Assembly (NCBI RefSeq): GCF_037081835.1
Contig: NZ_CP146516.1
Span: 1,635,501-1,699,500, forward strand
DNA length: 64,000 nucleotides
Source: Spirobacillus cienkowskii
GTDB lineage: Bacteria > Bdellovibrionota_B > Oligoflexia > Silvanigrellales > Silvanigrellaceae
Direction of reading: 5' to 3'
The notes under the pieces were generated by a model. It searched no databases and had not been told where the DNA came from. It saw only the letters and a list, made by a program, of their open reading frames with translations. How positions within the stretch are numbered: position 1 is the stretch's first letter; every line of letters starts with the position of its first letter. The position numbers and the translations under genes were made by a program. This document shows positions 1,527 to 19,700 of the stretch, piece after piece.

Positions 1527-1727
1527 CTGTGTCAGGGTGAAATTAAGTTAGTTGTGTATTTGTATTAGTTGGTATTTTATCTGAAAATACCAACTAATAC
1601 AGTTGATGAGTTGGCTCTGCCAGTCCATTGGTATTCCTTTGTTAATTTTGTTTGTGCAAAAAATATTTAACAAACTGGAGTTATTTTTTCAAGCCTCACA
1701 ATAACTTTCTCAACTATTAACTGACAT
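1527..1727 (+). repeat. dispersed repeat copy 1, with a perfect 17-bp hairpin
   Basis: About 200 bp that recur at 4850-5112 (same strand) and, degenerate, at 24441-24566 (opposite strand). The most conserved parts are ggctctgccagtccatt and caagcctcacaataactt. A perfect inverted repeat pairs 1562-1578 with 1584-1600 around a 5-base loop. No ORF is visible. It may be a MITE-like element or an IS remnant; the opening aaactgtgtcag looks like an IS terminus, but this is a guess. Confidence 0.6.
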
Positions 1728-2727
1728 TTATTGTAAGTTCTGTAATGTCAGAAATTCTTTTTGTTCCTGGTATCAAAGTTCCTGTAATTTTTATTTTCTT
1801 TTTTGGCAACAAACCCGCTTCATTTGCAATCTTATAAAAGTCATAATTGTTTGTCTGTAAAATAAAATCTTGTTTTGTTTTGGTATTTAAATAATTTCCA
1901 CTTATTTTTATAGTACCTATATTTTCTTTTTCATTCCATCCATTGCTTTTAACAGTTCCAAGTACTTCAACAATTTTTTCTTTTTCATCTGTTGTAATGC
2001 TTTCAAGTAATTCTTTTACATATGAGCAGAATTCTTTATTTACTTGACATTCAAAAACTTCAGTACCACTTGCAAATGAAATTTCAATCCCTTCTCTTTC
2101 AGCGATTTCTGCAATTGGATTAAAAGAATCTAAAAAATTAGAACTAACCCCTTTTTCTGCAAGAATGTTATGTTCAGCAACAGTAGGTATAGAATCAGAA
2201 TCTACGAGCTGAGATGTGGTTTTTAATGCTTGCTGAGTAATATCAAGGATACCTGTTTCTTCAGGAATCAGTATCGTTACAATATAGCTTCCCATTTTTG
2301 CTGGTATCTCTTTACATAACTTTAATTTTTCAATAGCAAGATCTTTTGCTCTAAGGTGTTTTAATTTTTTTTCTAAACTTGAATTTGATGTTGCTGTTAT
2401 CATTTTTTTTGCAGCATTTCTTATGTTTAAAGAAGTGTCAAGGTCTATTTCTCCCGATTCATTTGGGACTCTAATTTGCATAACACCTTGCTTTAAACAA
2501 AATAATTCTAAAAAAGATTCTTTCGGTTTATTTTCTCTTTCTGCTAAAAATGTAATAGCTTCTTCAAAATACCTTTCTGCACCAGGTATAGAATCATCAT
2601 AAATCTCAAGAATTCTTTTTTCATCCTTGTGTACTAAGAATTTGAGTTTATCAGCGTAAGAATCTTTTACATGCCAATCATTTGCTTCAAGATAATTTGA
2701 AAGCCTAGTAAATGTTGAGGCTGTCAT
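1717..2727 (-). CDS. uncharacterised 336-aa protein of a three-gene unit
   Basis: A soluble-looking protein with no signal peptide or membrane segment. The first ~120 residues look alpha/beta (FLELFCLKQGVMQIRVPNE), then comes a helical stretch and a segment containing GSYIVTILIPEETG. The last ~85 residues are beta-rich (GTIKISGNYLN, KKIKITGTLIPGTKRI) and could be an OB-like or barrel domain. I do not recognise the family with certainty. It begins 13 bases after the DUF4365-like gene and is the last gene of the unit; its stop lies at the edge of dispersed repeat copy 1. Co-location with a DUF4365 protein suggests a defence or plasmid-type role, but that is inference. Confidence 0.6.
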   Translation of the reverse strand: MTASTFTRLSNYLEANDWHVKDSYADKLKFLVHKDEKRILEIYDDSIPGAERYFEEAITFLAERENKPKESFLELFCLKQGVMQIRVPNESGEIDLDTSLNIRNAAKKMITATSNSSLEKKLKHLRAKDLAIEKLKLCKEIPAKMGSYIVTILIPEETGILDITQQALKTTSQLVDSDSIPTVAEHNILAEKGVSSNFLDSFNPIAEIAEREGIEISFASGTEVFECQVNKEFCSYVKELLESITTDEKEKIVEVLGTVKSNGWNEKENIGTIKISGNYLNTKTKQDFILQTNNYDFYKIANEAGLLPKKKIKITGTLIPGTKRISDITELTINVS

Positions 2728-2740
2728 GACTATTTCATCC

Positions 2741-3325
2741 TTAATTTAAATTTCTAGTAGTAAGTTTTTCTAATTCCATTAGTCTTTTAATTTTATATTG
2801 GCTATAATTCTGATATGTATTGAATCCAAAAATTAAATTGTCTAAAAAATTAACATCAAATATTGATTTTTTCTCAAACCGAATTGTTTTACTTGAAGTT
2901 AAATTATTATTCTCAGGATTGAATTCATAATAGTAAGCACAATATTTTAAAATTGTCTTATAATCTACAACATCTTTTTCATGCTCAACCCATTTCTTTT
3001 TTTCTTTTGGAACATTAAAGAGTATAAAATAAAATGGATCTGTAAAAGTTTTCTTTTTGATATTTTCAATGTGCCTATCTTTTTTTAAAGTATATGAAAT
3101 AAATGTTTCATTATTTGTTGTCGGACTTTCAGTACATTTTAGTTGTAAGTCAATTTTATAAGGCGACTCTAAGCCATCTTCATGTTTAATACAGGTATCT
3201 ATTGTAGCATCAACAAGACCTTCATCAACACTCCATTTAGCCACTTTCCAGCCTGCTTGTGCAGTAATTGCATAAATGTAGGCTTCACTAAATTTTTCTT
3301 TCCATTTTGAATCATCAAATTCCAT
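2741..3325 (-). CDS. DUF4365-like protein
   Basis: A 194-aa protein with the layout of DUF4365 domains: a helix with conserved aromatic residues (FSEAYIYAITAQAGW), an acidic DATIDTCI strand, YKIDLQLKCTES (the D-x-Q-x-K pattern of a restriction-endonuclease-like fold), then FYFILFNVPKEKKKW. DUF4365 proteins are common in defence and mobile-element neighbourhoods and are thought to be nuclease-like. Asp in DATID and the Q-L-K triad could be catalytic, which is inference. The ATG follows the upstream gene's stop after one base, so the two are translationally coupled. Confidence 0.65.
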   Translation of the reverse strand: MEFDDSKWKEKFSEAYIYAITAQAGWKVAKWSVDEGLVDATIDTCIKHEDGLESPYKIDLQLKCTESPTTNNETFISYTLKKDRHIENIKKKTFTDPFYFILFNVPKEKKKWVEHEKDVVDYKTILKYCAYYYEFNPENNNLTSSKTIRFEKKSIFDVNFLDNLIFGFNTYQNYSQYKIKRLMELEKLTTRNLN

Positions 3326-3326
3326 T

Positions 3327-3890
3327 TTAAAACAATCCTGTATTTGTTGTTACCATTCCAATAAATGTTTCTAAATCCTTTTTATTATTTAAATTAATTG
3401 TGATTTGACTTGCGCCAGAGTCGTGAAAAACGACTCGACAATGAAAGCCAAGGGCATCTTTAATTTTCTTTTCTGCACTCATTGCTTCTAAAATATTCGT
3501 AGAAACACTGACTTTAAGCATATTTGGGAGAATTTCCTTTTTATCTTTTTTTACTGATTTTTTTCTAGGAAACTTAGGTTTACTGCCCATTCCTTCTTTT
3601 TTCATCCGTAAAACTTCAGAGTACAAAAGCTTAAAAGAATTTTTTGCACATAGATTTCTTTTCGCAGCAAATTGATTGATTAAAATTTCGCGAGTAAAAA
3701 TTTCGGGATGTTCCTTAATCACAAGCTTTAATTCGTCTGGAATTTTCGCAAGCCAAATTGCACGACTAATAATTTGTGCATTGGTTTTATATTTGCTAGC
3801 TATATTTTGGATAGAAATTCCTGAGAGAAATTCATTTCTCCAGACAATTCCTTTTTCTAGTATTTTAATTCCAGCACACCCTTTGCTCAT
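3327..3890 (-). CDS. ParB/KorB-like DNA-binding protein without nuclease-like N-domain
   Basis: A 187-aa protein. Residues ~25-80 (IQNIASKYKTNAQIISRAIW, then LAKIPDELKLVI) resemble the ParB helix-turn-helix, in which a recognition helix is followed by L-x-x-I-P-x-E-L. A Lys-rich linker leads to a C-terminal domain (CRVVFHDSGASQITINLNN, then KKDLETFI) like ParB dimerisation domains. The N-terminal ParB/CTPase box is absent, so it is a truncated or specialised relative. It is the first gene of the unit and could be its regulator or DNA-targeting part. It might be a plasmid-partition leftover. Confidence 0.5.
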   Translation of the reverse strand: MSKGCAGIKILEKGIVWRNEFLSGISIQNIASKYKTNAQIISRAIWLAKIPDELKLVIKEHPEIFTREILINQFAAKRNLCAKNSFKLLYSEVLRMKKEGMGSKPKFPRKKSVKKDKKEILPNMLKVSVSTNILEAMSAEKKIKDALGFHCRVVFHDSGASQITINLNNKKDLETFIGMVTTNTGLF

Positions 3891-4041
3891 TATCTTTTCC
3901 TAGCCTAGAGTTTAAGCAATATTAATATATTGTGGCCTAAGTTAAAAATTACCGTCTTTTTAACGTCTTTTAGCCCTCTCATCATATAAAATAATATTTA
4001 AAAAACAAGAAAACTCACACTATCATTTTCAAAACACTTTT

Positions 4042-4191: not shown

Positions 4192-4817
4192 AAGAAGTTA
4201 CAACTAAAATCCACCAATCCTCTAGGCAAAACTATGGTAGGCGCAGAGTCTTTCAAACCTGCAAAATACAAGGGATCTCATGCGGTAAAAATAAGGTTGG
4301 AAAGCTTATGAAGCAAATGAAATTGCGGGGCAGAGGAAAGCCTAAATTTGTGAAAACCACCGATTCCAAACACAATCGAAAGGTTTTTCTAAACCTCATT
4401 ACCCAAGATTTCAGAGCTTACTCACCCAATTCTTTATGGACTTCTGACATTACATATATCCCCACAAAAGAAGGTTGGCTTTATTTATGCGTGGTTTTAG
4501 ACTGCTTTTCGATAACAAGAAGAGCTCTAAAAGAATTAGACAAAGCACCATCACAAGTACAAATTAAGTATATCGCTTGGGTCAAGCTTGTAGAAAAAAC
4601 AGGGCTTATGGAAACAAGAAAAATTGGTGTCACAAGACAATTTTTAAATGCTATAGAACTTAATAAAACTCCTGCTAATATTGATCTTGCAATCGATATC
4701 GCTCATGCTTTAGGCTACCCTGAATTTTTATTTCTTGAAGTGTGTATCAATGATTTATTGAGAAGAAAAGGAGTGCTAGGAACTGTAAAAGTACAACTTA
4801 ATGGCACAGCTGCTTAA
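4176..4817 (+). pseudogene. chimera: IS3 transposase ORFB + HigB fragment + HigA fragment
   Basis: One continuous frame (first ATG at 4308) joins three pieces. Up to ~4512 it is IS3 ORFB: IHQSSRQNYGRRRVF, a TDSKHNRK segment, and SLWTSDITYI with the first catalytic Asp, ending at VVLDCFS. From ~4513 to 4617 it matches the N-terminal half of HigB toxins (ITRRALKELDKAPSQVQIK, KTGLMETRKI). From ~4618 it matches the C-terminal half of HigA antitoxins (GVTRQFLNAIELNKTPANID, LAIDIAHALGYPE). The last two catalytic residues of the transposase, the HigB active half and the HigA N-terminus are missing. It is probably dead, though a HigA-like DNA-binding tail could still fold. Confidence 0.7.
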
Positions 4818-4849: not shown

Positions 4850-5112
4850 GTACTGTTCTAAAAACTATGTCAAACTAAAATTAACTGTATTAGTTAGCAT
4901 TTTATCTGACAATACCACTGTTTTAAAAAAAACTTCAAACAGGGTAATAGATTTTTTTACGGTTGTTAGGTTTTGTCTTAACTAATACAGTAGATGATTT
5001 GGCTCTGCCAGTCCATTAGTAGCTCCTTTGTTAATTTGTTTAAGCAAAAATTATTTAACAAATAGGAGCTACTTATTCAAGCCTCACAATAACTTTATCA
5101 ACTATTAACTAG
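4850..5112 (+). repeat. dispersed repeat copy 2, with an insertion
   Basis: It matches copy 1 at 1527-1727 but carries about 60 extra bases (around 4917-4978) that split the hairpin arms. Shared segments include ggctctgccagtccatta, an A/T-rich block with tttaacaaa, and caagcctcacaataactt. The right end abuts the BrnT remnant, so the repeat may mark the break that cut off the toxin's 5' end. Confidence 0.6.
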
Positions 5113-5113
5113 C

Positions 5114-5209
5114 ATTATTAGAAACAGTAAAATTAGAATTATTAGAGCTAGAGAATTAAATAATAAAGAAAGGGAAAAGTATGAACAAATATGTAAAGAA
5201 TCAAGATGA
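5114..5209 (+). pseudogene. BrnT toxin, C-terminal remnant
   Basis: A start-less frame reads IIRNSKIRIIRARELNNKER then EKYEQICKESR and stops inside the following antitoxin gene. R-I-I-x-A-R followed by a K-E-R-x-x-Y tail is the typical end of BrnT-family RNase toxins. Everything upstream is replaced by dispersed repeat copy 2. The overlap with the next ATG keeps the normal brnT-brnA order. Confidence 0.6.
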
Positions 5210-5444: not shown

Positions 5445-6602
5445 TTAATGATCATCATACATTTGATAGTAATAAAAATATTGTTTTTCTATTTTAGCTT
5501 TATCAATATAATAATAAATTCGCAGTTCCCTTAAAGGACGCTCGTATTGATCAGTTAAATACTGACGCAATTCTGAAAACAGCATGGTTAAGTTTACAAA
5601 ACTCAGTTCATCAATATCATAAATTTTCATTTTGTCTTCGGCGTCAAACGCATCAAACAAATATTTTGCATTACGGCCAGTAGGTGCAAGAGCACCATTA
5701 AACACAATTTTTATAAAATCATCGGGAGCAGTATTGTATAAAACTTGAGCGATATCCGTTAAAATTTCATGCTCAGTGCGAGTTGAAGGCATATTTTTTA
5801 ACGTTAAGCCTCTAAAAATATACTCTTCGGGGTTTAGCCCTTTTACCACGCATTTGGAGAACTGGGTAAATGCCGGAGTAGAGGCTTCTTGCTTAAATTC
5901 TTTTAGAAAATGCATCTCTTCTTCTCGAAGACTATTATTGATTGTTTGCATTAGGTTTTGGTAGCGTTTTGGGTTGATTTTTTCTAAATAATTTAAAAAA
6001 CTATCTCCTTTTTTATTTTTAATTTCAAAATATTTATTGGTATAATAATTTTTATTCAAATACTCCCCAAACTGCGAATACGGATTTTCTTTAAATAATT
6101 GTTTTTTTTCGTTAGAAACATTTACTTTTACAGTTGATGACGTACCATAAACATCAATTTCAGGTAGCTTTTCTGTTAAAGTGGGTAAAATACATTCAAA
6201 ACTATTGGCAACATAATCTATTTTTTCGATTATTTTTTTATCTTCAATAGCACCTAACTTTACATACACCACAGATGGTTCTGAGTCTCTCAACCCATTT
6301 AAGTAACTGAGACAATTGTAATTACCCTTACGATCTTTTGCAAAAGGAATCAGTTTATTATTAAAAAATACGTCTGAATTATGTTTTATTTCATATTCCA
6401 TGGCATACATATCTTCAACGTGCGGTGTAAAAGTAACTAAATAACCAACATAATCTTCTTTATCATCATTATTTATCACTTCTTGCACATTGGTGGTATA
6501 ATGCACCCGCACTTTTAAATAATGATGTTCCTTTAATAAATTTTTATAATGCACAGGTAGTTTTAAACTGTATTTGTTTTCAAATTCTGTTATGTTTTGC
6601 AT
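5445..6602 (-). CDS. SUKH-fusion protein, putative second immunity gene (cdi locus copy)
   Basis: A 385-aa protein. Residues 1-~150 have the SUKH/SMI1-KNR4 pattern (FENKYSLKLPVHYKNLLKEH, then FTPHVEDMYAMEY and IPFAKDRKGNYNCLSYLNG), a fold used by immunity proteins against nuclease toxins. Residues ~190-385 are a mostly helical domain I cannot name (EYIFRGLTLKNMPSTRTEHE, then LFDAFDAEDKMKIYDIDEL). It is 40 bases downstream of cdiI and has an AAGGT ribosome site. Near-identical copies at 34524 and 41701 also follow a SUKH gene in a WHH module, so the three genes travel together. A two-headed immunity protein is my inference; an immunity-stabilising role is possible. Confidence 0.6.
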   Translation of the reverse strand: MQNITEFENKYSLKLPVHYKNLLKEHHYLKVRVHYTTNVQEVINNDDKEDYVGYLVTFTPHVEDMYAMEYEIKHNSDVFFNNKLIPFAKDRKGNYNCLSYLNGLRDSEPSVVYVKLGAIEDKKIIEKIDYVANSFECILPTLTEKLPEIDVYGTSSTVKVNVSNEKKQLFKENPYSQFGEYLNKNYYTNKYFEIKNKKGDSFLNYLEKINPKRYQNLMQTINNSLREEEMHFLKEFKQEASTPAFTQFSKCVVKGLNPEEYIFRGLTLKNMPSTRTEHEILTDIAQVLYNTAPDDFIKIVFNGALAPTGRNAKYLFDAFDAEDKMKIYDIDELSFVNLTMLFSELRQYLTDQYERPLRELRIYYYIDKAKIEKQYFYYYQMYDDH

Positions 6603-6642
6603 ACTAAATTTACCTTTTTTAACGCTTTTTATTTTTAATTTA

Positions 6643-7206
6643 TTATTGATTTTCTAAAGTTTCTTTGCGACGGTTTTCTCGGTTTTGCCAGAAAAGTTCT
6701 TCATTGTATGTCTTTCTCGCTCCTGAACTGCTGACGTACAACATATCTAAAAACTCAGCAAAACTCGTAGCTACAAAAGATAGTTCGGAACTTGAACCAG
6801 ATTCTGCTTCATGGTGCCACACCACTATTTTAGGGTTATCTGTTTTAGGATCATGACGGTAATCAAAGCAAATTTCTTCTCCTCCTGGATCAACCGCAAA
6901 TGCAATGACATTTTTAGGATATGCAAACTCTTCATCTCTTGATAAATTGGATTCCCAATACCATTCTATTGAACAGTCTGTATTATATCCTAAAAATGAA
7001 CCCAAAGGATAACTTTCGTAACGATCTATAAAATTAGAATAAAAATAAAAAATATTCATATGGTTTTGAATTGTTGCACCATTAAAATCAACAACAATAT
7101 CAACATAAGCCTGGGGAAATTTAAACCCTATTTTATTTTCAAACTCACGCACTACAGAAATATCAACTTTTTCTTCGCGCGTTTCAAATACAATATCTTT
7201 TTTCAC
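6643..7206 (-). CDS. cdiI: CdiI immunity protein, SUKH (SMI1/KNR4) family
   Basis: The 187-aa product carries SUKH features: VVREFENKIGFKFPQAYVDI at residues ~18-37, a conserved FYFYSNFIDRYESYPLGSFL, and FAVDPGGEEICFDYR followed by PKIVVWHHE. SUKH proteins are known immunity partners of polymorphic nuclease toxins, including WHH and other HNH types. Translation starts at GTG (7206), overlapping the cdiA stop as GTGA, so expression is coupled to the toxin. The C-terminal half is nearly identical to the copies at 33908 and 41064 while the N-terminal half varies, as expected for the toxin-contacting face. Confidence 0.85.
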   Translation of the reverse strand: MKKDIVFETREEKVDISVVREFENKIGFKFPQAYVDIVVDFNGATIQNHMNIFYFYSNFIDRYESYPLGSFLGYNTDCSIEWYWESNLSRDEEFAYPKNVIAFAVDPGGEEICFDYRHDPKTDNPKIVVWHHEAESGSSSELSFVATSFAEFLDMLYVSSSGARKTYNEELFWQNRENRRKETLENQ

Positions 7207-7781
7207 TCTTTTTTCTCCTTTTTCTCTTTCTTTTTTCTTTCTTTTAGTTCGGGATTTAAACTTTTAGCACCAACATGGGGAGCATCTTTATGTATTTTTG
7301 TTTCTACTAACTGCATTCTGCCTAAATCTTGATGATGGTGCCAAGTATATTTTCCTATTTTTTGTTTTCCTTGCTCCATATCCAACAACTCTGCTTCAGT
7401 AAACTTTCTTTTTAACACAGGATCTTTTTGCACTTCTGCCCATAAGGCTTTTGTAGACATAGTTAAATGCTCTTCATAATTTGTTTCCAACATTGTCTTT
7501 TGCGAAAAAATGACTTCCGTTTTCATATGCGGCGTAAAACCAGGAAGCCCTTTTTGATCATATACAACCTTTACAACTCTACCATCATTTAATTCAACAT
7601 TTATTGCTCTTCCAGCCATATTAACATTCGGTTTATCCAAATCAGGCACAGTATGCGATATTACATTTTCTTTCCCATACATGGCTTCGAATTCTTTTTT
7701 AGATTTTAACGAATCTATAGGTCCTTTCCCACCTAATGTAGGTTTGTAGTCAGGATCATTAACATCAATTTCTTTTTTACG
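7203..7781 (-). other. CdiA-CT: WHH nuclease toxin domain
   Basis: The last ~190 residues of CdiA open with KKEIDVNDPDYKPTLGGKG, continue with NVNMAGRAINVELNDGRVVK and end with TWHHHQDLGRMQLVE and a Lys/Glu tail. The W-H-H pattern is the metal-binding and catalytic core of the WHH branch of HNH/EndoVII nucleases, which cut DNA or RNA in target cells. The same opening and WHH core recur in the orphan copies at 33346 and 40489, which makes this boundary the likely exchange point. Confidence 0.85.
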
Positions 7782-10700
7782 AGCCTGGCGAATTGCATCC
7801 TCAATCTTTTTCTGCATTTTGCCGAGGTAGTTTTTTCCATTTTCTAGGACTTCATCCACGCCCGGAAGTTTTTTAACGCCTTTCCACGTTGTGGTTCCAA
7901 CTTTTGTAACCACAAGGCTAGAAACGTAATCTATGCCTTTTTCCTGAACCAACTGCTCCCAGGTTTTTTTGCCATTGCAAACATCTTCAATATCTTTATA
8001 AAGCTCGTAGCCAGTGTAAACTTTGTCTAAAATAGCTAACCCAGTAATAGCAATTGGAATAAGAAATAACGCATTATTCTCTGTTTCCAACCTCGCACTG
8101 GTCATCGCAGCATTGGGATCGCCAAGCCCTGCGGCAGCAGACATGCCCGCTACCAACGAGGTCACAATGTTGATGCGATTTTCTCTCTCAGCAGCGCTGA
8201 GGTTTTGTGTGTCTTCAAGGCTTGAAAGGGCGGTATTGATGAGTACCCCTGATGCGGCACCAAACGCTCTGGAACCGCAGCTATCGCCCATGGCTCCTGC
8301 GGCGCAGCCTAAAACAGCGTGCATGGCTGTGTGCCCAGGGCTGCCTTCGCCTCCCAGTAATGGGGCAAGTTCTTTGATTTTTTCGGCACCGATGCTTTGT
8401 AAATAATTGGCCGCAAAACTTTGCACAAGCTCCGTTCCCGTGGCACTGAGCTTGCCTGTAAACGCTGCGGCAAGTGCTGTGGCAACCTGACGGTATTCGC
8501 CCCCTGGTGCCCATTTCGCAGCAGATTCGTATTCTTGTTTTAATTGTTCTATGTATTCGGGTGGGACTGTGTCGCTATTTTTAAGAGCATGTTCTAATTC
8601 TTTCTCTTTTTGCTCTGCTTCTTGCCCTCTATTTGATATAAATGTGCCAAACTCTTTGCCAAAATCGTTAACGATCCCAATTTTTAACCGAATTTGCTCT
8701 TCGTCAAATATCTCATCTGCTTTTTGATGGGCGGTGCGGCTATCGCGATGCAAACTTGTTTGTATTTCTTCTGCCGTTTTTCCGGTAAGTGCCAATTGCT
8801 TTTTGTCATTGCGGATTTCAAGCACGCCTTCGTCTATTACGCTCCGGGTGACGCTTGAAATTTTCTTGCTACCTGGCAAATATTGCGGTGGACTTACTGA
8901 AAGCTTGTCGCCTACGCTAAAGCCCCCACCAATATGCTTGACGTCGTATTCCGCTTCGTTTTTGAGATCGACAAAATCTAGCGTCTCTGTTGAAAACTTA
9001 TTGAGTTTCTTATCTTTAGCCTCTTGGTTGCTCGCTATCATACCCCCTACTAGCTGGGTATGACCCCCTACATCAACTTGATAGCCTCCCGATCCTGCTA
9101 AAAAACCCGATTGCGTGATCACGCTCTTGTAGTTGCTGGCCATGTCGGTCACGCTGCCATTTACGCTCGCTTCCTGAGCCCCTACACACGCTGGAGGAAT
9201 ACACGCGCTTGCCGATACTCCAAACGAATACTCCTCAGAATCGTGGGTTTTGCTATCTTGCAGGCTTTCTATGTGCAAATTACCGGCTATATCTGCCTTA
9301 ATAAACTTGCCTTTAACTTGAGCGCCTTTTAACGTGGTATCCCCTCCTGATACCACTTCTACGCCCTGTTTCCCTTCTACTATTGTATCAACATGCTGAA
9401 TTTCACTGCTTTTGCTCCAACCTTCTCCTCCCGATACTCCTGCTTCAATCGTGAATCCTGTGCTTTTTCCTGCATTCGCACCTATCCCTAACTCCCAACC
9501 CGAATTCCATTGACTGCTCCGTCTCTCTGTGGTTTTTTGTGCCGCCTGCATTAAAATATTGCCTTCGGCCTCCAGACGAATTTTACCTTCCGCTTTGAGA
9601 TCACTGCCCGAAAGATCAATGCTGCTTTCCTTGCCCGCTCCCCGTGCCTGAACAATGAGATTGCCTTGTGTGTAAATCCCTGATTTATGAACTAGCGTGC
9701 TTTCGGTTACTGAGCTTTGCCCTGACTTGCTCTGCCCGATTGTATATTTAACCTTCACGCCACCTAAGTCTTTAGGTGATTTCTGCAACGCATCAACCGC
9801 ATTTTTGGCCGCTAAACTATTAGAAAGTAACGCCAACCCTTTAAAGCGGTCGTCTTCCACTTTGTTCATGTTCTCGGCTGTGCGCACCACGCCCTGTGCT
9901 GCTCCCACTACGGGGTTGGATGCCCCGAACGACAATCCACTGGTTTTTTGTGACGCGGAATTCTCTTCAAGTACTGTCGAAATACCTGCTTCTGTTTTTA
10001 CCTTTTCTGCAAATATCCCTACATCGCCTAGCGCCGAAAGTTTGCTGCCCCCTGTTTGGCTAAAGGTATTGCCTGCATCAATCACAAGCGTGCCAAAACG
10101 ACTCCCTACCTCAGAAGATGCAATTAAATTTTCTTTGGTTTTGTTACCTTTGTCTTTCTCTTGCTTGCCTATTGTAAATCCAAAACGACCTTCACTTGCA
10201 AATATTCCCGTTGTCCGCGTTGATTCATGAAACGATGCGTAGGTTTGTTCCGTTGCGGCTTCAATAGAAACATTGTTACCCGCTTTCAAAACTGTTTTTT
10301 GATCAGAAGCTATTTGACTTCCAGAAACTAAAATATCGCCTTTCTTTTCGCCACCTTTACCAGCTTGCAAAATAACCGAATTACCGCCTATTTTAGAACC
10401 ATAAACCCCGTCTCTTTCGCTTTCCCCCTGTGTTGTTGTGGTTTTGCTGCTAAATATTCCATCATTGGTTGATTTATTATAACTATAAGAGCTGCTTTTT
10501 AAACTCTCTGACAACACATCAATTTTATTATCTGCATAGAATTTTGCATCTCCATGCACGGCTGTAATTGCAGAACCTTGTAATAATATATTTCCTGATT
10601 TTGAATTCGAATCTGTGTTATTTTCACGTTCAAAAGCATTAATGATAATTGAATTTCCAGCTGTAACCTTACCACCAACTATTGTTTCTGAATATTTTTT

Positions 10701-13700
10701 ATCTACCCCTTCTCCTTTTGAAAAATGGTATTCATCATGAGTGCGTTTGGTATCTTTAACACCAGTTATTGTGACATTAGCGCCTTGAATAATAACATTT
10801 TGATTAGGATTAAATTTTCTTTCTTTTTCAGGAACATTAGCTTGGTCATCATTAATTTCTACGCCTTTGTAATTTACATTATTTTTTGCTACAATTATAG
10901 AATTGCCGTCGCTAATTTCTTTGCCAACGTGATGCGTAACGCTATTTTCTTCAATTCTTTGACTAGACGAATGAAAAATCATACCTAAAAAATTAGATGT
11001 TTTATTATTAGTAATTAACAATTCTTTTTCTGTAACCGCAGCTTTGGCGTTAATATCTCTGCCTGCTTCTTGCCGTGTTTCATTTTTAGAATAAATATTT
11101 GCACCAATTTTATTGATATCTCTGCCGGCAATAAGCTTTACAGTATCGCCAGAAACAGTAGCAACTCTATCTACCCGTGTGTTTTTTTGTTTTTGGCCAT
11201 TCACAATAAAATATTCATCCATTGCTTTTGTTTCAATATGAATATCGCGTTTGGCATTGAGAATTATGCTACTATTATCACCAGAACCTTTAATATCTCC
11301 AGAAATATTTTTAATATCATTGAGTGCTTGTAAGGTTAAACTATTTGCAAAAATTGAGGCATAAGGATTGTTAACAATGTTTTCGGCTTCAATTTTACCA
11401 CTACCAATATACATGCTGCTTGTGTTATTAAAGTCACCCGAAATTTTTAAATCGACTTTACCAAATATCATGAGCGAGCCATTGGATTTTAAATCTGTTT
11501 TTAACAAATTTTTTACATTCACAACAACCTGATCAACATCTTTATTAACATCAATTATTAAATCAGACGTTAAAGTTGCCATTTGCTCGTCACTCAGTTG
11601 TGTACCTGGAGTGATTTGAAAGTTTTGGGCAACCATTTTTCCTGAGTTTAAAAGATTTTGAAATTTATACTCGTTTTCTTGATAGTTTGTTAAAAATTGC
11701 TGGCCTGTTAATACCACAGCCTGATCACCCAATTCTCTTTTAGAATCAAACTGATCACCATAAATCTTTAATTGCCGCTCAGGATTGAGCTGTAATTTTT
11801 CTGTGTATTTATCGTGAGATAAAAATTTATTATATTCTACATAGGTTGGATTATTTTCTATTAAGTAACGATATCCTGGCGATTTTCTAAAATCAAAATA
11901 CCTGCTACCAGGCATTGATAAACTTAAATTAACATCCATAGGATTTAGCGCGTTTCGAGAATAAAAATCTATTGATGAAGAGTTATGATTGTTAAAATTA
12001 ATAGTTGTAAAATCTATTCCTTTTGCAATAGGAACATCAACTTTATCTAAAGTTACTGATGGATTTAAAGAATCATGTTGAATAGAATATTTTGTATTTA
12101 AAGCTTCAAAATTATTTTTTGATTGTGGGATAACAACTGGGTCAACATTAACTTTTTCATTATCAGGCAGCTTTGTATCGCTAAGTTTTACTCCATCCAT
12201 AGGATGAAGCAGTGAATTGTTTTTGTCTCTTAGACTCGAAAGCGCAACACCATTTACAGAGCTAGATTCTGGATTATCAATATCAAAATTTGGCTTTTCC
12301 GTCGTTGGTATTGCAAGTTGATGAATACCTTTCTGTTCTTGAGAAAGTGTTTCTTGATGTGTTGCAATTTGCAAATTTTTTAATACAGGTAATGAAACAG
12401 AATCAATCGAACGTTTTTCAACAAAAGATGCGCCATCCCGCGATACATCTTTTTTATAATTTTCTTGAGTGGTTTCAACACTACCTAAACTTGGTCTGTG
12501 CGCAGAATCGGTTAATGGATTTACTGCAATTTTATTTTGATTATCAAAATAACTTGATGTATTAACCACCGCTCCAGAAATATTGGTTGCTTCGGCCAAT
12601 GGTTTGATTTCGCCTATTTTGTGTTGGTCGTAGTGGTTCGTTTTTGTTTCAAGATCAGAACCGTCTGTAAAAAGATTGCCAAAAAGATCCCAAATACTCT
12701 TTGGCCACTCATATATATCATCTATTTGCACGCGATCTGTTATTTTGTCTACAGAAATCAATTTTTTTGCATGGTATTTTTTACCAAAATAATATTCGTC
12801 TTCAGTTTTTAAAATATTGTCAATTTTAATTTCAGTATCTTTATTGTACTCATTAAAATTATGCGCAAGATTTTGATTTTCGTTTAAGTTAACATCAGGT
12901 CTCTTTTTTAAATTATCGTGTTTTGCACCTTCATCCATATCCATTGAATACCTTGAAGTGCCTGCTGCAGCTATTGTACTATAAAAATTACCAATATAAT
13001 TTTTAAAATTAATATCTCCACCAGATAAAATTTCTGATGGATTGCTATGTTGTTTTAAGGAATATGTATCGGTTTTTCTAGATAAAGTTCCTTTTTTTCT
13101 TTCTGTTAAGCCATCACGCCTTCCGGTTGTAAAAACCGTTTCCATTCCTGAGTTAGGTAAATTTTCAGGTTTACCTTCAATTTTTACTTTTTCAGGATCC
13201 ACCGCAGGCTTATTGTAAACTCTATCCACATCAAAATTAATAAATTTTTTTGCCACAATTTTTGTAGAAATATTTTCTAGTATGCTTGCAGTAAAGGTAA
13301 GGCCGCCTATGCTTAAAATTTGGCTGTTATTAACATTTCTAATTTCTTTGGCATCTAATTTCACTTCGCCCGATTCAGATGTTCCAACTATTTTTCCGCC
13401 CGCATCATTTTCAATTTCACCCGATCCTCTTTGTGCTGTTAAATTTAAATTATCACCAGAAATTCTTGAGGTATTTAAAATACGACTACCTGTTAAATTT
13501 ACAGATTTTCCATCTATTTTACTATAATTTTCAATACCTATAACAGCGTCTATATTTACAGAATCTGCAATAACTTTTGCTTGCGCATGGTTTGTAAAAT
13601 TATTGCTTGAAGTAATTTCTAATTTTTTTCCTACAATAATTTTATTATTACTTACGCCATTAGCACTAATTGTTAAAGTATTTTTTGCAGAAATTTGTGC

Positions 13701-16700
13701 ATTATTTATAAAATCATTTTTAAATTCTAACTCAGAATCACCTTGGCTAATAATTTTTCCTGCTACATTGCTTGAACTGGTTTTAAGAATTAAATCTTGA
13801 TCTGCAATAACAGTTCCAAAATCATTGCTAAAATTTTGTGATTCTATATTTATTGTATTTTGAGCATAAAGATTACCAGAATTATTATCTAAACTAGATG
13901 ATTTTATATTTAAATTACTTCCGCTATTAATTTTGCCACTATTGTTAGAAAAATTATTGTTACTCTCAATCTCAATATTGTTAAGTGCTAATATATTTCC
14001 ACTGTTGTTGTATAAATTATTTGCATTTAATGTTATAAAACCCAACGCTTTGATGTTTGCAGAGGTATTTTGTACTTCTCCTGTTGCATCAATTTTTATA
14101 TTATTACCAGAAAATAACGTACCAGAGTTATTATTAAATGACTGCGTTTGTAATGTTGCATCACCTAAAACATTAAATGAACCACTATTGTTATGAACAT
14201 TTGAAGAATTTAAGCTTAAAGAACTTGCAAAAACCTTGCCGTTATTTGCATTATCAAAATTGCCAGATCTTATTTCTGCATTAACCTTAGAAATAATTGT
14301 ACCTTGAGTGTTATCAAATTGATTATTATTTGTGTTGATATCGAGTTTATTTTGTGAGTTGCCATTTTCAACAACAATAACTCCTTCTTTGTTAATAATT
14401 TGGTAACTGTCTGATTTTAAATAACTCCCACTATAAATAATTCCGTTATTATTATAAACATCTCCAGATGTTATATCGAGGCTTGTACCAGCATGAATTC
14501 TGCCCATACTTGTATTAGTTAAAGATTCTCTCTTTAAATTTATGGTTACATAGCTTTTCCCAGCAATAACACCAGCACTATTGTTAAGCTCTCCACTATG
14601 AATTTCTAATTTGTTATCAGCAATAATTTTTCCAGAAGTGTTGTTTAGGGTGCTTGCAAAATTTAAATTTTGCGTATCACCAGATAAATTGCCATTATTA
14701 TTATTTAATGAATTTCCTGTTATACCCAATGCAGCGCTTGCATAAATAAGGCCACCTGTATTATTTATGTCTCCATTTTGAGCAATAATATTTACAGAAT
14801 CATTATGATTAAAAATTTTACCACTGATATTTTCTATATTACCACTATTAATTTTAATTTCATTGCGTGCTGCAAAACTACCAGAATTATTTTTTAAATC
14901 TCCCGTTGTAACTTTTAATTTTCCATGCGATTCTAAAGTTCCAGAATTATTATTTAATAAACCTTGCGACACAATTTCAGCATCACCTAATGATGCAATT
15001 GTTCCTTTAATGTTATCTGCAATTGTACCTGTAAATTTTAAAGTTTGTTTACTAAAAATTTCGCCGTTATTATTTAAAAATTTACTTGCAGTAAATGTAA
15101 CATTTTCGCCTTGAATTTGCCCTTTTGAAGAATTGTCTACACTTTTTGCAGTTATTGTTAAATCGCCTGAAGTTTTAATTTTACCGCCTACATTTAAAAT
15201 ATCTTGTGATGCGGTATTAATATTTAAACTTCTTGGAGTTGAAGCATTCGCATTGTGAGCAACAATTTCTCCTGCAGTGTTATCAATTTGTAAACTTTTT
15301 ACCTCAAACACTCCACCACTAAATAACAATCCTGTTTTGTTATAAAGGTAAGAAGAATTAATATCAGAATTTCCTTCCGCAAAAATTTTCCCTGTTTGAT
15401 TATTAAAAATATTATTTGCTGTAATATTAAGATTTTTTCGCGATAAAATTGTTCCATTATCATTATTAATGTTTTGCCCTTGAGTTTTAATTTTCATATC
15501 TTGCTGTGAGGCAATCAAACCCAATTTATTGTTTTCAACGCCAGCAAACAATTCTAGTTTTTCGTCTGCAACAATTTTTCCTTCTTTGTTGTTCACTAAA
15601 GAGCCAGATTGCAAATGCAGTTGTGTTGTAAATCCTAAAATTTCGCCTTCTGTGTTATCAATACTGCCGCTCTTAATTATTTGGTTGCCACTAGCAAGAA
15701 TTTTACCTTTATTGTTATTAATTTGTTGATTATTTGAATTGATTTCTAAATTAGCGCCAGGGTTGCTTGTAAATATTTTTCCACCTTGTGAATTATCAAT
15801 CTCGTGGCTTATAATTTTTGCGCTCAGTCCGCTTGCAATTTTACCAGATTGATTAATTAATTTTTGTCTTTGAGTATTAATATTAAGGGTTCCCAATGCC
15901 ATAATTTCGCCATTGTTATTACCCTTAACACCACCATCTAATTTTAAATTTTTACTCGCAACAACTTTACCATCGTTATTATTTAAATTGCTACCTTCCG
16001 ATAAATTTAAAGTAACAGATCCACCTTCGCTACTAGAATTATTTACATTTGCTGCCGTAATTGTGCCATTTGAGTTATTTACATTTGCTGCCGTTACAAC
16101 AATACTACCTTCTTTACTTGATATTTTTCCTTTATTGTCATTTATAATATCATGGTTTTTTGTATCAATTGTAATATCATTTTTAGCGGCAATAACTCCT
16201 TGTGTGCTATTTATTGCATGACTTGTGATTGTTAAATAATTATTAATACTGCCAATAGTGCCTTCGCTGTTTTTCAGCGCATGGCTTTCTAGTATCAAAT
16301 TGCCGTTGGCAATTATTTGCCCTAAATTATTATTAACAATTTCTTGTTGTGAATTTATTGTTAACGCACCTTGCGCTGATACAATTCCTTTTTCATTACC
16401 CGACACACCACCTTGTAATGTTAAATTATTACGAGCTAAAGCCTTACCAGAATTGTTAGTTAAATAACTGCCTTTTAATAAATTTAACACAATATCACTG
16501 CCAACAATTTCGCCTTGCGTGCTATCAATATTCTTTGCTGTGACGGTAACATTGCCTTCTTCGCTTAGTATTTTACCTTCGATATTGATAATATTTTGTG
16601 CGTTTGTGCTAACAGAAATATCTTTTTTCGCTACAATTTTACCTTGTGTGCTATCAATTTCATGACTTGTTATAGTTATTTCACTTTCAATGCTTCCAAT

Positions 16701-19700
16701 CGTTCCTGCGTTATTTTGTAGCGCATGGCTTTCTAGTTGCAGAGTGCTTTTAGCAACAATTTTTCCTGAGTTATTGTTAACCGCTTCTTCTTGAGAATTT
16801 AACGTTAACGTACCTTGCGCTGATACAATTCCTTTTTCATTATCAGCAACACCACCTTGTAATGTTAAATTATTACGAGCTAAAGCCTTACCAGAATTGT
16901 TAGTTAAATAACTGCCTTTTAATAAATTTAACACAACATCACTGCCAACAATTTCGCCTTGCGTGCTATCAATATTTGCCGCTGTGACGGTAACATTGCC
17001 TTCTTCGCTTAGTATTTTACCTTCGATATTGATAATATTTTGTGCGTTTGTATTAACAGAAATATCTTTTTTCGCTACAATTTTACCTTTTGTGCTATCT
17101 ATCAAATGGCTTGTAATTATAATATCGCTGTCAACACTACCAATTGTTCCTGAATTATTTTTCAGTGCATGACTTTTTAAATCTAACTTACTGTTAGCAA
17201 TAATTTCGCCAGAATTATTGTTTACTGCCTCTCCTTGAGAATTTAACGTTAACCCACCTTCGGCAATAATTTTTCCTTTTTCGTTACCTGCAACACCACC
17301 ATATAATTTTAAATCCTTACTTGCAGAAACTTTACCTTCATTATTATTTAAATTGCTACCTTCTGTTAAATTTAACGTAACAAATCCGCCAACAATTTCG
17401 CCTTGGGTGCTATCAATATTTGCCGCTTTAACGGTAGCATTGCCTTCTTCGCTTAATATTTTACCTGTATTATTATTGATATTTTGCGCATTGGTATTAA
17501 GAATCAAGTCTTGTTTCGCAACTATTTTGCCTGCAACACTGTTATCCACTTCGAGACTTGAAATTGTTACACCGGCGGCACTGCTGCCAATTGCGCCCGC
17601 TGTGTTGTGCAACGCTTGAGCTTCTATTTGCACGGCACTTTGTGCCACAATGCTACCCAAATTATTCACTAATTCTTGCCCTTGAGTATTGAGACTGAGC
17701 GTACCTTTAGCTACAATTTTACCCTCATTATTACCCGCAACTCCACCTTGCAATATTAAATTATTACGGGCTACAACCTGACCAGAATTGTTACTTAAAT
17801 AACTGCCCTTTAATAAATTTAATGCAACATCACTGCCAACAATTTCGCCTTGGGTGCTATCAATATTTGCCGCTTTAACGGTAACATTGCCTTCTTCGCT
17901 TAATATTTTACCTTCGATATTGATAATATTTTGTGCGTTTGTATTAACAGAAATATCTTTTTTTGCTACAATTTTACCTTTTGTACTATCAACAGCATGG
18001 CTTGTAATTATGATGTCACTGCCACCGCTACCAATTGTTCCTGCATTATTTTGCAGTGCATGGCTTTTTAAATCTAACTTACCGTTAGCAATAATTTCGC
18101 CAGAATTATTGTTTACTGCCTCTCCTTGAGAATTTAACGTTAACCCACCTTCGGCAACAATTTTTCCTTTTTCGTTACCTAAAAGACCGCCTTGTAGCAT
18201 TAAATCTTTACTTGCAACAACTTTACCTTCATTATTATTTAAATTGCTACCTTCTGTTAAATTTAACGTAACAATTTTGCCCGCAATTTCACCGCTGCTG
18301 TTATTGAAATTTGCCGCCTTAACAACAATATCTCCTTCTTTACTTCCTATTTTTCCTTTATCATTATTTGTAATATCATGATTTTTTGTATCAATTGTAA
18401 TATCATTTTTAGCAACTATTTTTCCATTTGTGCTATCTATCGCATGGCTTCTAATTATAATTTCACTGCCACCGCTACCAATTGTTCCTGCATTATTTTG
18501 CAGTGCATGGCTTTTTAAATCTAACTTACTGTTAGCAATAATTTCGCCAGAAATATTGTTTACTGCCTCTCCTTGAGAGTTTAACGTTAACGCACCTTCA
18601 GCAACTATTTTTCCTTTTTCGTTACCTGCAACACCACCTAGTAATGTTAAATTATTACGGGCTACAACCTCGCCAGAATTGTTACTTAAATTACTACCCT
18701 TTAATAAATTTAATGTAACATCACTGCCAACAATTTCACCTTGGGTGCTATCAATATTTGCCGCATTGACGGTAACATTGCCTTCTTCGCTTAATATTTT
18801 GCCTGTATTATTATTGATATTTTGCTCATTGGTATTAAGAATGAAATCTTTTTTCGCAACTATTTTGCCTGTAACACTGTTATCCACTTCGAGACTTGAA
18901 ATTGTTACACCGGCGGCACTGCTGCCAATTGCGCCCGCTGTGTTGTGCAACGCTTGCGCTTCTATTTGCACGGCACCTTGTGCCACAATACTACCCAAAT
19001 TATTCACTAATACTTGCCCTTGAGTATTGAGACTGAGAGCGCCTTCGGCAACAATTTTTCCTTTTTCGTTACCCGCAACACCGCCTTGTAGCGTTAAATC
19101 TTTACTTGCAATAACTTTACCTTCGTTATTATTTAAATTGCTACCTTCTGTTAACTTTAAAGTAACGAATCCGCCTCCAATTTCGCCTTGGGTGCTATCA
19201 ATATTTGCCGTTGTGACGGTAACATTGCCTTCTTCGCTTAATATTTTTCCTGTATTATTATTGATATTTTGCTCATTGGTATTAAGAATGAAATCTTTTT
19301 TTGCAACTATTTTGCCTGCAACACTGTTATCCACTTCGAGACTTGAAATTGTTACACCGGCAGCAGTGCTGCCAATTGCGCCCGCTGTGTTGTGCAACGC
19401 TTGCGCTTCTATTTGCACAGCACCTTGTGCCACAATACTACCCAAATTATTCACTAAGTTTTGCCCTTGGGTATTGAGACTGAACGCACCTTTGGCAACA
19501 ATTTCACCCTTGTTATTACTAGTCACACCTCCTTGTAATATTAAATTGTTGCTTGCAAAAACTTTTCCATCTTTGTTACTTAAATTACTACCTTTTGTTA
19601 AATTTAACTCAATATCAACTCCAGAAATTTGCCCAGAATTATTTTCAAGATTACTTGCATTTAATACTAAATCACCTTCAGCAATTATTTTTCCTTTTAC

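Follow-up and report, generated by a model that had tools for sequence, protein, structure and literature searches.

A probable ParB-type regulator ahead of a PDC-M02 candidate defence pair on the Spirobacillus cienkowskii chromosome

Several described systems resemble parts of the locus reported here. The plasmid repressor KorB and the regulator VirB possess an N-terminal CTPase domain as well as a DNA-binding domain. The WYL regulators BrxR/CapW, and CapK/CapS, head unrelated defence modules (PMC9122601, PMC9122588, PMC13373217). DUF4365 nucleases belong to short-Argonaute systems (TmuRE; SPARDA), and in the DUF4365-APAZ protein TmuRE, which cuts DNA non-specifically once its Argonaute partner recognises a target, Q62 and K64 are putative active-site residues (PMC10810196). 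Acinetobacter pdif modules are exchangeable plasmid cargo adjoining Xer/dif-type sites (PMC6449649, PMC13141974). The published complete genome of S. cienkowskii measures 2.81 Mb, lacks a plasmid and encodes eight antiviral systems (CRISPR types I-F and II-C, four restriction-modification systems, SoFic and Gabija); the three genes described below are not named in that list (PMC12321486).

We analysed a 64,000-nucleotide stretch of DNA, referred to as the window, from an S. cienkowskii-type host (Silvanigrellaceae) whose genome is a single contig of 2,806,830 bases (G000), the window covering positions 1635501-1699500 of G000:C1; S. cienkowskii is a pathogen of water fleas. A preliminary description made from the window alone had singled out three tightly packed genes at 1717-3890, and they are indeed intact, uninterrupted minus-strand open reading frames, with gaps of 1 base between P and A and 13 bases between A and B.

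3890-3327, minus strand: P, 187 aa, first gene of the operon
3325-2741, minus strand: A, 194 aa, DUF4365 protein matching PDC-M02A
2727-1717, minus strand: B, 336 aa, divergent match to PDC-M02B

Profile matches place A and B together as PDC-M02, a pair already catalogued in PADLOC-DB as a phage-defence candidate and not named in the papers searched. A matches the PDC-M02A family (PDLC04297, 2.5e-31), and B, which lies directly downstream after the 13-base gap, aligns over its full length with PDC-M02B (PDLC04307, 9.8e-18). The 336-aa protein that had been called unknown therefore has relatives, and the statement that the genes match no named system fails for A and B; it stands for the ParB-like gene as an unusual partner. 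Gene order and spacing are those usual for PDC-M02, and the window differs in having a ParB-like leader ahead of the pair and a B that is shorter and divergent.

The DUF4365 assignment of A holds (Pfam PF14280, 3.6e-13), and the nuclease fold suggested for it takes the form of a predicted PD-(D/E)XK-like domain that retains the putative catalytic Asp (D39) and Gln-x-Lys (Q61-L62-K63); all four residues are invariant among 10 A homologs. A shares its Pfam domain and the Q-x-K active-site residues with the short-Argonaute DUF4365 nucleases, but its partner here is M02B. Neither an APAZ domain nor an Argonaute partner was found, as A contains DUF4365 only and B matches no Ago family. B is shorter than the other aligned M02B members and lacks the QTE-GSF motif common to them, and its AlphaFold model, built from three distant sequences, has a pLDDT of 36. 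Profiles of A and B returned no matches among PDB sequences.

A search of genome contigs and plasmids with the B sequence alone found no relatives; these emerged through profile libraries and through tblastn with the B homolog of a related species' plasmid (G006) as query. The latter returned 13 plasmids, from Phaeobacter, Gluconobacter, Caballeronia, Streptomyces, Entomospira, Methylobacterium, Tistrella, Pusillibacter, Pigmentibacter, Ornithinimicrobium and Rhizobium, together with two Mycobacterium prophages. Most of the annotated loci have a DUF4365 gene immediately upstream, and they have nothing else in common. An M02AB pair is also present on a viral contig, adjoining phage structural genes. 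The range of the pair thus takes in alpha- and betaproteobacteria, a spirochaete, a clostridium, actinobacteria and prophages, nearly always without a ParB-like gene, and the fact that plasmids and prophages from many phyla carry it unaccompanied fits a self-sufficient cargo system. The window's own genome holds two further PDC-M02 pairs, at about 100 kb (L023:14742-16393) and 701 kb (L024:7880-9506), neither with P adjacent.

This distribution bears on what P contributes. The 1-base gap between P and A, and a gene order that is repeated on the G006 plasmid, would be expected of a functional third defence component, for example one that recruits the A-B nuclease to invader DNA. Such a role is very improbable, as a pair closely related to that of G006 has been kept without P at 701 kb in the window's genome, P is common to unrelated modules (see below), and the other M02 loci checked have no convincing P-like gene nearby: one has a 27-residue match about 5 kb away, and the match at L023 is a separate core P, 7 kb away. 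It is also improbable that the operon is a toxin-antitoxin-like plasmid addiction module, not primarily anti-phage, with A as toxic nuclease, B as antitoxin and P as repressor. The plasmid-borne relatives, the compact three-gene order and the toxin-antitoxin neighbours agree with it, as do the DarTG and AbiE cargoes of other P genes, which are toxin-antitoxin systems also known in defence; against it, A and B are full-sized and conserved, a small labile antitoxin is absent, and M02 pairs occur in prophages as well.

Searches with P against Pfam, PADLOC and NCBIfam gave no significant match. The protein is homologous to the full-length, ParA-linked ParB of a relative (2.5e-11), and a profile of nine P members matches the Spo0J C-terminal domain (0.0018) and, weakly, the KorB and P1 ParB DNA-binding domains (0.16-0.41). 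In the structural model (mean pLDDT 79), a disordered linker joins a helical DNA-binding domain to a C-terminal domain of helix-strand-strand-helix order; the best PDB folds for the model are SopB-DNA, P1 ParB-DNA, VirB, KorB and the Spo0J C-terminal domain, with weak E-values (0.01-0.5) and probabilities mostly of 0.8-1.0. The central helix-turn-helix (HTH) and the C-terminal dimerisation domain of ParB are both present. The N-terminal CTPase domain is absent: the HTH region begins about 10-20 residues from the N-terminus, and the full ParB L032.3 has well over 100 extra N-terminal residues. The DNA-binding domain of P is similar to those of KorB and VirB, and P differs from both in lacking the CTPase domain. 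Of the P loci inspected, the window included, none has a ParA adjoining P; the one on contig G057:C62 is encoded about 7 kb from P and has its own partner. From its sequence and predicted structure, we assign P to the ParB-type DNA-binding proteins (HTH plus ParB C-terminal domain) and not to the partition ParBs. The relationship to ParB proposed in the preliminary description thus holds for the DNA-binding and C-terminal domains only, and the missing CTPase domain had been recognised correctly.

Homologs of P fall into two groups that are about 25% identical and, among 58 genomes of the phylum, are restricted to the Silvanigrellaceae-type family, apart from one marginal match in G030. Scans of viral contigs and phages with the P family were empty, and P appears to be confined to Silvanigrellales in the collections searched.

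Upstream of P lies a promoter-like block that also precedes the P genes of G006 and G057:C62 in conserved form.

4003..4008, minus strand: -35-like TTGTTT, within the conserved block
3981..3986, minus strand: -10-like TATGAT after a 16-bp spacer (TATACT in G057:C62)
3953..3970, minus strand: candidate P operator AAAGACG...AAAGACG, a direct repeat 11 bp apart just past the expected transcription start

Compared with the window, the promoter and repeat block scores z = 13 in G057:C62, where both AAAGACG repeats are kept, and z = 5.8 in G006, where they are kept imperfectly; none of 500 shuffles reaches these values. The distance from the block to the start codon is 96 bases in the window, 61 in G057:C62 and 152 in G006, and this variation argues for a selected cis element. 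A position directly beyond the expected transcription start points to an operator function for the repeat. The 18-base element has a single perfect match in the 2.8-Mb genome, at the P promoter itself, and matches with two mismatches occur at control level. From the HTH domain and the gene order, we infer that P is the ligand of the AAAGACG repeats.

P genes of both groups were found beside different defence modules.

Window, chromosomal: P with M02AB
G006, 44-kb conjugative plasmid: P with M02AB, gene order as in the window
G000 at 894 kb: 5'-truncated P with a PD-T4-5 homolog (L026:9526-10239; 2.9e-13)
G000 at 814 kb: degraded second copy, a P remnant with a PD-T4-5-like gene (L025:9070-9450)
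G000 at 1632 kb, 3 kb before the window: group II P with DUF3800
Pigmentibacter ruber plasmid AP029160: group II P with DarT/DarG (6.5e-62, 1.8e-133)
G008: AbiEi-AbiEii followed by group II P, which trails here instead of leading
G057:C62: P beside VapBC-like genes and a type I-F Cas3, those on the opposite strand

The trio itself recurs once elsewhere, on the G006 plasmid, whose 127-base terminal overlap indicates that it is circular; it is neither unconserved nor composed entirely of partition or housekeeping genes. The loci at 894 and 814 kb are a decaying duplicated P cassette. On the P. ruber plasmid, Cas9-Cas1-Cas2 lies on the far side of the recombinase described below. G057:C62, a 62.9-kb contig of an S. 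cienkowskii metagenome-assembled genome (MAG), looks like a phage-plasmid; besides P it encodes contractile-tail-like genes, a terminase-like protein, ParA, SSB and a recombinase that is absent from the complete genome G000, and it carries a dif-like site. A defence role for the unit, as suggested at the outset, is supported; A and B are a PADLOC candidate, and P homologs precede or accompany other defence modules. The recurrent tie of P to defence is argued from the diversity of its partners in mobile, plasmid-rich regions, and we count against a regulatory reading the opposite-strand neighbours in G057:C62 and the position of P after AbiE in G008. Stand-alone chromosomal P genes also occur: four species of the genus have one at a shared syntenic position where no defence gene is present, so defence control would not be the only role of P. 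In heading unrelated defence modules P is positioned like BrxR/CapW and CapK/CapS, but it is of ParB type, belongs to an unrelated family without a WYL domain or kinase and, unlike BrxR/CapW-type leaders, is so far found only in Silvanigrellales.

Leader and cargo have been exchanged. Between the window and G006, P is 64% identical, whereas A and B are only 27% and 26% identical, which indicates that leader and cargo are shuffled; a closer match to the G006 A and B (58% and 66% identity) is the P-less pair at 701 kb in the window's genome. The group II locus of G000 and that of P. ruber share DNA homology from -153 to +588 around P, covering promoter and gene, and this homology ends where DUF3800 or DarT begins, the cargo being unrelated. 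Likewise, the plasmids of G006 and P. ruber have a backbone in common (about 72% identity) until about 40 bp past a dif-like site, and beyond that point they carry different P types and cargo.

The dif-like site (CGCATAA-N6-TTATG) occurs once per replicon on the G006 plasmid, the P. ruber plasmid and G057:C62, in all three between P and a divergently transcribed tyrosine recombinase, and the extended pattern had no match in the other genomes of the genus searched. No dif-like pair flanking a cassette was found, with one site per plasmid and none in the window. The arrangement thus differs from Acinetobacter pdif modules, which it resembles as exchangeable plasmid cargo beside a Xer/dif-type site, in having a single site per plasmid and not a flanking, oppositely oriented pair; the P plasmids also bring their own recombinase, and the window copy is siteless. 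The plasmid recombinase is absent from the window's genome, where just two homologs pass the search threshold, with 35-40% identity; these are probably the chromosomal XerC and XerD. On both plasmids (L004:5007-6625, L028:13731-15052) the recombinase is followed by genes for a small membrane-type protein and a coiled-coil protein, possibly an unrecognised plasmid resolution or maintenance operon.

The main rival to a regulatory model draws on this arrangement, and holds that P is a plasmid-maintenance protein, an accessory to multimer resolution or segregation, that marks a cargo site at which defence genes hitch-hike without being controlled by it. P belongs to the ParB family, in every one of the three recombinase-bearing replicons it is transcribed divergently from a plasmid-specific tyrosine recombinase, a single dif-like site separating the two, and this recombinase is not among the two Xer homologs of the window's genome. 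We nevertheless regard plasmid maintenance as rather unlikely: the switch of both P type and cargo past the dif-like site implies that P travels with the cargo and not with the recombinase, chromosomal P genes sit beside defence genes without recombinase or site (in the window, at the group II locus of G000 and at 894 kb), and linkage to ParA is absent.

Instead, we think it probable that a plasmid-type defence cassette is present here as a chromosomal copy, with the ParB-type leader P regulating the PDC-M02 cargo. As a dimeric DNA-binding autoregulator, P would occupy the direct repeat with 11-bp spacing at its own promoter and limit the expression of A and B, transcribed together with it, until the cell is infected or the cassette enters a new host. 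In a possible A-B complex, B would be the sensing or licensing partner and A the one that cuts DNA, and the outcome would be phage or plasmid restriction, or abortive infection. More tentatively, truncated ParBs may be lineage-specific leaders of Silvanigrellales defence cassettes, with their own promoter and operator, that are recombined at the plasmid dif-like/recombinase site and control the modules on entry into a new host. As far as our searches show, a ParB-type leader common to unrelated defence modules has not been described. If these proposals are true, P would represent a new kind of defence regulator, positioned like BrxR/CapW, and plasmid ParB-like proteins would be linked to the control of immunity. 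The shared leader would also provide a handle for defence-gene discovery, with the gene behind P in other Silvanigrellales as a candidate, and what was an unknown trio is now a testable pair of claims.

The surroundings of the operon in the window contain repeats and insertion-sequence (IS) remnants, as the preliminary description had noted.

1592-1728, plus strand: dispersed repeat, first copy, including the last codons of B
4308-4817, plus strand: IS3-type integrase-core fragment fused to an HTH_3 antitoxin-like remnant (Pfam rve 4.3e-8, HTH_3 2.6e-5)
4980-5116, plus strand: dispersed repeat, second copy, hairpin z-score -3.4

The reading frame at 4308-4817 is a deletion chimera. IS debris has replaced the sequence upstream of the window's P promoter, so that any dif-like site there is gone. 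With IS fragments and repeats on both sides, it could be asked whether the unit is itself decaying debris within an IS-rich region; two other P loci of the genome are truncated or stop-bearing, B is divergent and without the motif common in M02B, and a second S. cienkowskii MAG lacks the trio. We consider such decay unlikely, given that the three reading frames are intact and that the catalytic residues of A and the promoter block are kept.

The two flanking repeat copies are 84% identical to each other and belong to a hairpin-forming element of about 136 bp that is present genus-wide, with 21 copies in the window's genome, and may be MITE- or terminator-like. We rejected the repeat as an attC- or pdif-like cassette boundary, since its 21 copies lie at unrelated places and the element occurs throughout the genus. 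An Rfam match to mir-7371 at 1558-1606 scored below the gathering threshold and is spurious. Beyond the second repeat, the window encodes a 5074-aa filamentous-haemagglutinin-like protein (5445-22427) with two SUKH-family (SMI1/KNR4) genes downstream, a contact-dependent-inhibition-type arrangement with immunity genes.
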